This document shows, piece after piece, positions 16,392 to 57,150 of a stretch of DNA of 64,000 bases. Numbering within the stretch: the first letter of the stretch is position 1; each line of letters starts with the position of its first letter. Origin of the DNA: Salinirubrum litoreum (lineage in GTDB: Archaea > Halobacteriota > Halobacteria > Halobacteriales > Haloferacaceae); NCBI RefSeq assembly GCF_020567425.1, contig NZ_JAJCVJ010000001.1, positions 1,612,001 through 1,676,000 on the forward strand, written 5' to 3'. Both the position numbers and the translations under genes were made by a program. The notes beneath the pieces were generated by a model that did no database searches, was not told where the DNA came from, and worked only from the letters and a program-made list of their open reading frames with translations.

Positions 16392-17210
16392 ACGCGGTGG
16401 GTTCGTGCGTTGAGTGGTCCGAACCGCGAGACTACGAGTCAGTTTTCGTGTGTCGTCGCGTGGACGTGTGGACCGCGAGAACGACTGCTGTCGATGGCGT
16501 CGGGGACTGCGACAGCAACCGCGACTGCGACAGCGACGACACCGCAGACCACAACAGCAACGCTACTCGTGCTAGCGCGAGGAACCGCCACAGCACCGCC
16601 ACAACACCGCCACAACACCGCAATCGAACGAGCCACAGCCTCCCCAACCGACTGCGTGACTCACGGGAGCGCGCCCACGAGGGGCGCGCTCGGTTGCGTT
16701 ACTCATCCCTCGCACGCGTCAAGTCGCGCGCGCCGACCGCACCGCGACAGCACTGCCGACCTTCCATCACAGCTCACGAAACACTTACCAGTCGCGTGGG
16801 CTGGCGCGACCTCGTGTCGCGCCGACGGTCGCAGGTAGGCCATCGCTGATCCGACTGGTCCACCGGGTGTTGCACGATGGGGCGCAAATTCCACCGGGTG
16901 GGACTGAAAGGGGCCGGCGTCTCGGTCCCGCCCCGACGACGTAAGCAGAGCGAGAGCGAAGCTCTCGCCAGCAGTCGGGCGACTCCCGTGTCGCCCGACA
17001 ACACTGGACTGAATGAGCGCGCGGAGCGAAGCGACGCGCGCTCGTGAAGGAAGCGCGCAACGAGTCGCGGCGGGTCGAGACGCCGGGGGCTTTCACCAGT
17101 CGTTGTCGCCGACAGATTCCACTGAGTTTGCATCGCCAACCGACTTCACCGAGTGCTCACCGACTGATCCGACCGAGTTCTCACCAACCGACTCCACCCA
17201 ACGATTCCAG
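16392..17210 (+). repeat. Dispersed hairpin-array element, copy B (full)
   Basis: A non-coding element of about 0.8 kb. It starts with a CACCGC/CGACAGC tract (16500-16640), then CTCCCCAACCG (16640-16650) and a hairpin GAGCGCGCC/GGCGCGCTC (16667-16691). A first long-range stem ACCAGTCG/CGACTGGT (16787-16794 with 16852-16859) encloses GGCGCGAC/GTCGCGCC. A second long-range stem pairs TGAAAG (16905-16910) with CTTTCA (17090-17095), and CCGGCGTCTCG (16914-16924) with CGAGACGCCGG (17076-17086), leaving a symmetric GGG/GGG loop. Inside are three hairpins: GCGAGAGC-GAA (16950-16968), GTCGGGCGAC (16974-16999) and GAGCGCGCG (17015-17043). ORFs here are incidental. The tail faces the 3' end of the permease gene. 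Confidence 0.8.
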
Positions 17211-27119: not shown

Positions 27120-28022
27120 GTGATATCGGAGACCGGGACCGCGTTCCGGACTGTGACAGCTACTGCAACCGCACCACAGACCGCGACTGCACCAGCACCG
27201 CTACTCGATCCGGTACACACGGACTATTCGACCGCGACAGCGACAGCACCGCGAACCGCAACCGCGACAGCACGGCACAGCACCGCACCTCGGTCCTCCC
27301 CAGCCTCGGGGCGCGCCTGAACGCGCGCCCCTCCCTCGCGCGTTTCTCGCGCGAGGGAGTTCGGGCCGAATCGCACGCAACTCGGAGTTTATAAGCAATC
27401 TCGGTCATTTTTATACCCCTCACAGACGGCAGGTTAGTCACCCGCTATCGTCGAATTTGGAACCCGCACAGGACGCGATCTGGTGGCGACCGGAACCGAG
27501 CAGTGTCCGAACACCGTGAGGACCTGCTCGCAGTTCGGTCGCCAGCAGTCGGGGAGGAGTGGGGAGTACTGCGACTGCCGGGTTCCAGACCGGCAGACGG
27601 CTCACCGGGTGACGACCAGTAGCGACACGATGGGACGCACATCTCGGGTGGGACTGAAAGGGGCCGACCGCTCGACCCGGCCCCGACGCCGGTAGCCGGG
27701 CGGGACCGGAGGTCCCGCTGGAAACCGGCGCGTCGCGCCGGTGGCAGAGCGAGACCAGAGGTCTCGCCAGCAGTCGGGCGACTCCCGTGTCGCCCGACGA
27801 CACGGGACTGAACGAGAGCGCGGAGCGAAGCGACGCGCTCTCGTGAAGGAAGCGCGTGGTTCGAGAGACACCAAGGACGTCTCTCGTCATCACGAGAGAG
27901 CTTCGCTCTCTCGAACGACACCAAGTCGCGGCCGGTCGAGCGGTCGGGGGCTTTCACCACCTCGTTGTCCGCGACCGATTCAGCAACGTACTCCGCGACC
28001 GATTCGACTGAGTTCACGTCCG
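27120..28022 (+). repeat. Dispersed hairpin-array element, copy C (full)
   Basis: A non-coding element of about 0.9 kb. The CACCGC tract (27150-27290) runs into CTCCCCAGCCTCG (27296-27308), then hairpins GGGGCGCGC (27308-27331) and CTCCCTCGCGCG (27331-27359). Two TATA-like boxes follow near 27388 and 27408. A first long-range stem pairs GGAACCCG (27459-27466) with CGGGTTCC (27579-27586). The second pairs TGAAAG (27655-27660) with CTTTCA (27951-27956) and CCGACCGCTCG (27664-27674) with CGAGCGGTCGG (27937-27947), again with a GGG/GGG loop. It encloses seven hairpins between 27700 and 27913. The tail faces the 3' end of the SpoIIM-domain gene. No convincing protein frame exists. Confidence 0.8.
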
Positions 28023-46074: not shown

Positions 46075-46230
46075 CGTGGTTGTGACTGTGATCGTGACCC
46101 GCAACCCGCGACAGCACCGCTACTCGATCCGGTGCAACCGGAATATTCGACCGCGACCGCCACAGCACAGTAACTGCGACCGCACCGCAGACAGCACTGC
46201 ACCGCACCTCGGCCTCCCCAGCCTCGCACA
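46075..46230 (+). repeat. Dispersed element, copy D (tract and box only)
   Basis: This short copy has GACAGCACCGCTACTCGATC (about 46113-46132), shared almost exactly with copy C near 27191, followed by a CCGGTGCAACCGG-type dyad and ATTCGACCGCGACC. It then has CTCCCCAGCCTCG at 46214-46226, identical to copies C and E. The hairpin array and the long-range stems are missing, and the adjoining gene's 3' end follows directly. It lies downstream of the M28 gene and faces the convergent hydrolase gene. Confidence 0.65.
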
Positions 46231-47814: not shown

Positions 47815-48116
47815 CTCAGCAGCCGTCACCTCCTGTACGCCCACCGGAGACCTGCGTCCTGCCACCAGCAGCACACGCGACGGTCTCGTCGTGGGTCCGG
47901 GTCGTTCGTCCCGCTGTACGATCTCTCTGGACTGTCCGGGTTATGGTAGGAGACTGGCCGTTCCGAGTCGACGTCGTTCGACGCCGTTGCACAGCCAGTA
48001 CCGGAGACGTTGCGCAGAGACGCCGATAAGTGTTAGCTATACGAAATTATAGTGGCCGGCGTGAGACGATCACCGACGGGGGGCGGCCGCGAGCGACTCT
48101 GCTCGGGACCGCGATC
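47815..48116. other. 302-base intergenic region with 32-base repeat
   Basis: Between two minus-strand genes. It contains repeat copy R1 (48024-48055) plus about 28 further bases of weaker similarity to the region before the monooxygenase start. TTATGG near 47940 could be a TATA element for the gene at 47814. No additional ORF is convincing; a plus-strand frame starting in the repeat (MLAIRNYSGR) is produced by the repeat itself. Confidence 0.45.
48024..48055. repeat. 32-base repeat with dyad, copy R1
   Basis: Identical at 31 of 32 positions to 49993-50024. It contains CTATA (48037-48041) and TATAG (48048-48052) as an inverted repeat around a 6-base centre, preceded by CGATAAGTGTTAG. It is located downstream of the SnoaL-like gene. 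It may be a regulator site or a duplicated promoter. Confidence 0.75.
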
Positions 48117-49957: not shown

Positions 49958-49992
49958 TGTTCACCCAGTACCGAGAACACGTGTGGAGACGG

Positions 49993-50024
49993 CGATAAGT
50001 GTTAGCTATACGAGATTATAGTGG
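49993..50024. promoter_or_regulatory. 32-base repeat with dyad, copy R2, upstream of monooxygenase
   Basis: Second copy of the sequence at 48024-48055, one mismatch. It begins 36 bases upstream of the monooxygenase start, so it is in promoter position. The CTATA/TATAG dyad lies at about 50006-50021. A regulator of the monooxygenase operon is expected to bind here. Confidence 0.65.
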
Positions 50025-50085
50025 TCGAACTGAGAGACCGGGCGACTGCGGTGTGAGAGTGACCCCACGGCTTCGACACGAACCA

Positions 50086-56333: not shown

Positions 56334-56429
56334 AATTTCGGAGCGAGTGCTGTGAGACCGCTCCGGGGGAACGAGAGGCGAGTGCTCGCGTCTGGAGTGA
56401 ATTCTGTCGAGTGAGTCGTGGATGACGAG

Positions 56430-57150
56430 GGGTGAAACTCCCACCCGACTCTGTGACCCATCACGCAGTTACTGCCCGTCACCCATCCTGTCGTCGTAGA
56501 ATCGGAGCCCGGCAGTCGCGGTATTCTCCCCTCGCGGCCCCGACTGCTGTCGATCGAACGACGAGGAGGGCACTCGCTGTCGCTCGGACACTGCTCTGTC
56601 GGGTCGCCAGCAGATCGCGTCCAGCGCGGGTTCCGAGCCTGTCGTCGTGTGAGTGAGGAGTGGTGCCTGCGCGTTCACCTCTGAACGTAGCGCGCGCGAC
56701 TGACGCGCGCGAGGTCTTCCCGAGGGAACCGAACAGGGCGAGACCGAGGGTCTCGCTGGCAGTCGGCGCGGCGCGCCGACGACAGAGCGAGAGCGAAGCT
56801 CTCGTCAGCAACCGGCGCGGAGCGCCGGTGACGAAGGCTCCTCAGAGCGTGCCGCTGACGGTGGAGAATCGCGGGCGGTGCCGAGAGCGATTCGAGGCTG
56901 GGGAGGGTGAGGTGCGGTCGCGGTGCTGTCTGCGGTGCGGTTTCTCGCGCTACGATAGTCGCGGTCGCGGTGGCGGTCGCAGTCGCGGTTGCGGTGGCTG
57001 TGCAGTCACGGTCGCAGTCTGCGGTAGTGTCGCAGTCGCGGGTCACCGCACTCTCACTGTCGCACAGCAGTCGCTCACGAATGTAGTTCGGGGGAAAGGG
57101 GGAATGCGGGCGCGTGTGACGCCCACCAGGTGGTCCATCTGCTAGGTACA
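56430..57150 (-). repeat. Dispersed element, copy E (rearranged)
   Basis: On the minus strand the order is: CACCGC-rich tract (about 57070-56910), CTCCCCAGCCTCG (56905-56893), a hairpin array, then GGAACCCG (56634-56627) with its near-complement CGGGCTCC (56511-56504), and GTTTCACC near 56440. The array (56691-56829) has CGCGCGCG, GCGAGACC-GAG, GTCGGCGC, CGAGAGC-GAA and ACCGGCGC-GGA hairpins, spaced by short CAG-containing linkers. Its loops are purine-rich on the plus strand, opposite to the tract, so the array is inverted and displaced relative to copy C. The 56586-56634 block matches 27459-27510 of copy C. It faces the 3' end of hemB. Confidence 0.72.

Follow-up and report, generated by a model that had tools for sequence, protein, structure and literature searches.

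Related repeats of haloarchaea

MITEs of the IS6 family are non-coding, measure a few hundred bp and have terminal repeats of the form GG ... CTGTT with 8-bp duplications. IS6 elements share the 8-bp duplications, the GG tips and a cTGTt motif (PMC7986276), and the family membership of the archaeal ones is disputed (PMC6807381). MITEHarch3 is a haloarchaeal IS6-family MITE of ISfinder (PMC6807381), and two IS6 MITEs of 227 and 336 bp have also been reported (PMC7986276). The repeated units that we found in two relatives, G059 and G071, fit this description, and MITEHarch3 may be the same vehicle, a possibility not backed by any sequence comparison. The element presented here has a conserved core which, unlike IS6 MITEs, reaches high copy number also in genomes without such ends or transposase, the genome of our window included, and the relevant passages of both papers (PMC6807381, PMC7986276) mention no conserved internal fold.

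The SMR-A repeats of Haloquadratum (HqIRS42, 43 and 55) are about 110 bp long and lack a transposase; their inverted ends are prominent, and a genome can have as many as 54 copies (PMC3119063). They resemble the core in size, inverted ends, copy number and lack of transposase, without a sequence comparison having been made, but they insert into palindromes of IS605-type elements without target duplication (PMC3119063), which would set them apart from the core units. For R1, no match was obtained in genome G163, which we take to be Haloquadratum (suspected, not shown). REP, REPIN and BIME sequences and the Haloquadratum PATEs are likewise short, intergenic, palindromic, abundant and often arranged as inverted pairs; the core, however, is several times longer than a REP, and two of the genomes richest in it have no Y1 transposase. 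BOX elements of Streptococcus pneumoniae are modular interspersed repeats with two fixed ends and variable inner modules. Their modular plan is like that of the core only by analogy, in an unrelated organism and without sequence comparison. In our literature search on the sequence and on haloarchaeal repeats, the Haloquadratum and IS6 papers were the only near leads, and the fold was not described in the catalogues or literature searched. The haloarchaeal IS6-type MITEs and the SMR-A repeats are the nearest known systems, and the element is unlikely to represent a new category.

Three copies of the element in the window

The window is a stretch of 64,000 nucleotides from Salinirubrum litoreum (contig NZ_JAJCVJ010000001.1, positions 1,612,001 to 1,676,000). 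Copies A, B and C of the element lie in it with the following features:

1-101, + strand: copy A, 3' part of the core (full copy, L029)
16788-16859, + strand: copy B, type I upstream domain, stem CCAGTCG ... CGACTGGT
16895-17097, + strand: copy B, core element, CGGGTGGGACTGAAAGGGG ... GGGGGCTTTCACC (copy L030 of the genome)
16905-16910, + strand: copy B, helix 1, 5' side TGAAAG (partner 17090-17095; compensatory change in other genomes)
16911-16913 opposite 17087-17089: copy B, symmetric loop GGG/GGG
16914-16924, + strand: copy B, variable arm CCGGCGTCTCG (pairs with 17076-17086)
16948-16968, + strand: copy B, inner hairpin GAGCGAGAGCGAAGCTCTCGC
16974-16999, + strand: copy B, inner hairpin GTCGGGCGAC...GTCGCCCGAC
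17015-17043, + strand: copy B, inner hairpin with a GA/GA step and a GAA triloop
17076-17086, + strand: copy B, partner arm CGAGACGCCGG
17090-17095, + strand: copy B, helix 1, 3' side CTTTCA
27388-27395, + strand: copy C, TATA-like box TTTATAAG, upstream of the type II domain
27408-27417, + strand: copy C, second TATA-like box TTTTTATACC
27459-27586, + strand: copy C, type II upstream domain, GGAACCC ... GGGTTCC (covaries among 31 copies of the genome)
27645-27958, + strand: copy C, core element with seven inner hairpin arms (copy L061 of the genome)
27664-27674, + strand: copy C, variable arm CCGACCGCTCG (pairs with 27937-27947)
27937-27947, + strand: copy C, partner arm CGAGCGGTCGG

A preliminary description of the window, made from sequence alone, had claimed a long-range stem in copies B and C, and this held, with the pairings, the outer stem and the GGG/GGG loop all present and the latter two the same in both copies. 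It had also counted five arm positions differing between B and C; only three do (G/A, G/C and T/G), and each of the three is matched by a change on the opposite arm, as had been proposed. Copy A begins 148 bases to the left of the window (G000:C1:1611853), and its 3' arm is that of copy B, again as claimed, with CGAGACGCCGG at 80-90 and GGGGGCTTTCACC at 89-101.

Copy number and architecture

Copies B and C are two among about 90 in their genome. The 17-mer GGGACTGAAAGGGGCCG of the 5' end occurs at 92 places with at most two mismatches in 4.06 Mb, while its reversed control occurs at none. Whole-genome statistics for this genome are based on fetched loci. The copies have constant ends, CGGGTGGGACTGAAAGGGGCCG on the 5' side and CGGGGGCTTTCACC on the 3' side, and a variable arm together with its partner; the number of hairpins between the ends varies. 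Of the 53 copies in which 10 or more of 12 arm bases can pair, 35 show perfect Watson-Crick pairing, and 16 different 5' arms are represented. The core extends from GGGTGGGACTGAAAGGGGC to GGGGCTTTC and takes about 105-140 nt in its compact form, more where hairpins have been added; recurrent short forms such as GGGACTGAAAGGGGCCGGGGGCTTTCA have no interior. In six loci (L127, L136, L172, L174, L190 and L211) a second type of interior, ending in GATATGTCGG..GAGCGACC, was seen between the same core ends.

The repeated unit of this genome is longer than the core, reaching about -550 and +400 around the anchor, and combines a structured domain, of type I or type II, with the core and a tail made of imperfect 24-base repeats. 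Two TATA-like boxes lie upstream in 8 of 31 type II copies, copy C among them. Some stretches of high identity between copies start at GGGTGGG, a hint at modular exchange of the core through transposition or through gene conversion, between which we could not distinguish.

The fold and its covariation

On one defined strand the core forms a long stem, made up of short helices and internal loops, with a small hairpin at its end. In the class alignment 94.4% of the cells are paired and 22 of 30 pairs show changes on both sides. Covariation, which we scored against shuffled and slid controls without R-scape, amounted to 0.501, vs 0.146 +/- 0.008 for shuffled partners and 0.060-0.081 for slid ones, and none of 500 shuffles reached the observed values. 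Helix 1 is nearly invariant in this alignment; in G105 it has been compensated from TGAAAG/CTTTC to TCAAAG/CTTTG in 15 of 15 copies, a change that arose independently. A swap from C-G to G-C in the inner helix divides 54 from 11 sequences. The fold is kept by compensatory change while the arms vary, and the internal loops and unpaired motifs (CGACGYAAGCAC, GAGGAGCGCAGCGAG) are themselves conserved class-wide.

G·U pairs outnumber A·C mismatches three- to five-fold, with 66:20 across the class alignment and 45:9 within the type II upstream domain as found in the window's genome; these counts are not independent events, and sign tests by column (13:4 and 16:4) are weaker and point in the same direction. 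G·U accounts for only 3-4% of pairs. A process acting on double-stranded DNA would treat both strands equally, hence the G·U excess likely reflects selection on one strand while it is single, with strand-biased mutation remaining as a caveat. Judged by RNA energies, the + strand is more stable than its complement in 88% of 109 elements, and the mean strand difference is -4.2 kcal/mol, vs -1.8 with DNA energies. Most terminal loops are triloops with a C-G closing pair, frequently GNA, and no GNRA or UNCG loop was present among 86 of them. Within the class set the G-tracts (GGGTGGG...GGGG...GGGG) show almost no variation, and in some G172 copies the second tract is reduced to GG.

Distribution

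A covariance model built from 66 sequences matched 245 of 292 Halobacteria genomes, and the number per genome rises to about 94 (94 matches in G105, 92 in G059). In a phylum-wide sample the same model was positive in 21 of 24 Halobacteria and in none of 124 genomes outside the class. An exact 15-mer was present in 71 of 170 genomes of the family. Hosts recovered by the genome-wide scan belong to many genera of Halobacteria, including Haloarcula, Halobaculum, Haloparvum, Natrinema, Halorussus and Haladaptatus, and the single Prevotella match is evidently due to chance. The element is also found on haloarchaeal plasmids. An origin from viruses was rejected, with no exact match in viral contigs and none among phages.

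Rfam 15 gave no match above the gathering cut-off in the window, and relaxed thresholds still brought nothing above it. Matches below threshold were limited to copy C (CRISPR-DR20) and to five other loci; a CRISPR repeat was rejected, the score in copy C being 30 bits vs a cut-off of 42 and no array being seen.

The preliminary description had further proposed a conserved structured RNA or DNA of no known family, and this is supported by the class-wide covariation and the lack of Rfam matches at the cut-offs. The collection of copies by covariance model that it called for was run, with the outcome given above. Two results obtainable from sequence would have refuted the claim, namely loss of covariation once more copies were aligned and conservation in a single strain only; neither was met, because the element is conserved far outside one strain and its covariation is strong. 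What could not be seen at that stage was that the element is a dispersed repeat, whose copies move as DNA in relatives.

Genomic context

Gene context was judged with a simple gene finder. All 67 judged copies of the window's genome are intergenic, as are 113 of 115 judged class copies. In the former, the orientation classes are even (16 convergent, 17 divergent, 18 and 16 codirectional), while among class copies convergent gaps are fewer (14 of 113); the copies have little or no orientation preference relative to genes. Close neighbours are arranged head to head in 18 of 18 cases, mostly 23-35 bp apart, and a constant short gap recurs in G059, G172 and G177. No conserved promoter was found directly upstream of the class-wide core, where strong conservation ends at GGGTGGG. 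A terminator or leader role, also considered, is unsupported by this context.

Mobility in relatives

G071 contains three copies that share 99.1-99.7% identity along about 350-377 bp and lie in unrelated surrounding sequence. In each of them two cores stand head to head, enclosed by terminal repeats, GGTACTGTTTAGATTAGCG on one side and the related AGTAGTGTTTAGATAAGCC on the other. More generally, the units of G059 and G071 measure roughly 320-490 bp and comprise a core pair within IS6-type terminal repeats, which in some class-wide copies lie at a fixed distance of about 46 nt. Among 20 units bounded by terminal repeats in these two genomes, 8-bp target duplications are perfect in 7 and match at 7 or more of 8 positions in 11, vs 0% and 2.4%, respectively, of 380 control pairings; locus L224, for instance, has the duplication GTCCGGCC. 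The IS6-type transposase domain PF13610 was detected once in G059 and seven times in G071, and two IS elements (L297 and L299) have ends matching those of the units. Given the terminal repeats, the 8-bp duplications and a resident IS6-type transposase with matching ends, the units of G059 and G071 spread as DNA and are most likely moved in trans. Only these two vehicle genomes were studied closely.

PF13610 was found neither in the window's genome (G000) nor in G172, and none of 68 copies in the window's genome has IS6-type ends; the vehicle of the relatives is therefore not the vehicle there. A search for partner arms at distances of up to several kb revealed no autonomous version with core ends around a gene. 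Neither G105 (94 copies) nor G059 (92 copies) has a Y1 transposase, which is present in three genomes with zero copies.

Interpretation and alternative explanations

Taken together, the element is most likely a mobile repeat, non-autonomous and class-wide, with a conserved core that folds as RNA or as single-stranded DNA. The core would be the functional heart, riding on different vehicles, and would work as a single strand; if RNA, it would be made by transcriptional read-through or, in copies such as C, from a TATA promoter, all of which is inferred without transcript data. Since the copies move as DNA in relatives and no transcript data exist, the choice between RNA and single-stranded DNA is undecided. 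We lean slightly toward RNA, with single-stranded DNA as a close alternative and, again, no transcripts to rely on. Pointing toward RNA are the tolerance of G·U, the larger strand difference with RNA energies and the TATA-like boxes upstream of some type II copies (8 of 31); C-G-closed triloops and the lack of GNRA or UNCG are unusual for RNA and would suit DNA mini-hairpins.

The core may alternatively act as single-stranded DNA; the folded strand would arise while the DNA replicates or transposes and would be recognised by a protein of the host or the transposon. In a variant of this reading a G-quadruplex (GGGTGGG...GGGG...GGGG) is joined to the hairpin, which is conceivable, the quadruplex not having been modelled. 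The haloarchaeal cytoplasm is rich in potassium. Single-stranded DNA would accord with the absence of a conserved promoter or gene context, with the C-G-closed triloops, frequent GA/GA steps and missing GNRA loops, with the near invariance of the G-tracts, with solo deletion forms GGGTGGGACTGAAAGGGGCCGGGGGCTTTC that retain all four tracts, and with the movement of the element as DNA. The TATA boxes upstream of some copies of the window's genome and the absence of Y1 transposase from two of the richest genomes speak against it, however, and the G172 copies with only GG in the second tract against the quadruplex. It may also be argued that only the DNA ends matter and that template switching or gene conversion maintains the inner palindromes, producing compensatory-looking changes without selection on structure. 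The perfect inner hairpins, the mosaic copies and the recurrent internal deletions typical of palindromic DNA would agree with this, but we consider it unlikely, as loops and unpaired motifs are conserved class-wide, a symmetric DNA process does not predict more G·U than A·C, and the slid and shuffled controls score far lower.

A cis-acting element of the mRNAs of neighbouring genes (terminator, leader or 3' stabiliser) could be expected to be structured and intergenic, as the core is; against this, orientation is near random in the window's genome (16/16/17/18), divergent gaps there are as common as convergent ones, and the copies are numerous and paired head to head, so that this explanation is very unlikely. 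If the element were REP/RAYT-like or derived from IS605 (PATE) and mobilised by a Y1 transposase, its high copy number, palindromes and inverted pairs would fit, but the two copy-rich genomes without Y1 and the three zero-copy genomes with it all but exclude this reading, and such an origin is largely refuted as a general mechanism.

Returning to the mobile repeat with a folding core, a bolder version would hold that it is a selfish class-wide element in which selection acts on the conserved single-stranded fold rather than on the DNA ends, with different vehicles per genus and often head-to-head pairs. We regard this version as possible but less likely than not. Its fold could be that of an RNA or of single-stranded DNA, perhaps a hybrid of quadruplex and hairpin.

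In ordinary MITEs only the ends are conserved, whereas here an internal fold is kept class-wide by compensatory change while arms and vehicles change. As RNA, the core would constitute an abundant unannotated RNA family of Halobacteria; as single-stranded DNA, it would be a rare case of covariation reporting DNA structure. Either reading can be tested in genetically tractable haloarchaea. In the genome of the window, moreover, the repeat accounts for a large part of the long intergenic regions.

Other repeated modules in the window

Parts of the unit also occur on their own. At 56400-56660 (- strand) a type II upstream domain and linker are followed directly by the tail (GGGTGGGAGTTTCACCCC) without a core, and this coreless unit is probably a deletion product. 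At 56700-56870 (+ strand) inner hairpin modules stand in an array (repeat family D2) with the core ends missing. A 57-base repeat with 89% identity, CTACTCGATCCGGTACAMACGG..TATTCGACCGCGACAGC, is located at 27193-27249 and 46112-46168 and also upstream of copy L024; it might be a further module or a promoter. Another repeat, of 50 bases and 88% identity (GCGATAAGTGTTAGCTATACGARATTATAGTGG), lies at 48017-48066 and 49986-50035 in an upstream-like position and perhaps resembles a common regulatory region. Finally, the module CCTCCCCAGCCTCG / CGAGGCTGGGGAGG is found at 27285-27360 and at many loci (L309, L127, L131, L141), near the core in several genera and in both orientations relative to it.
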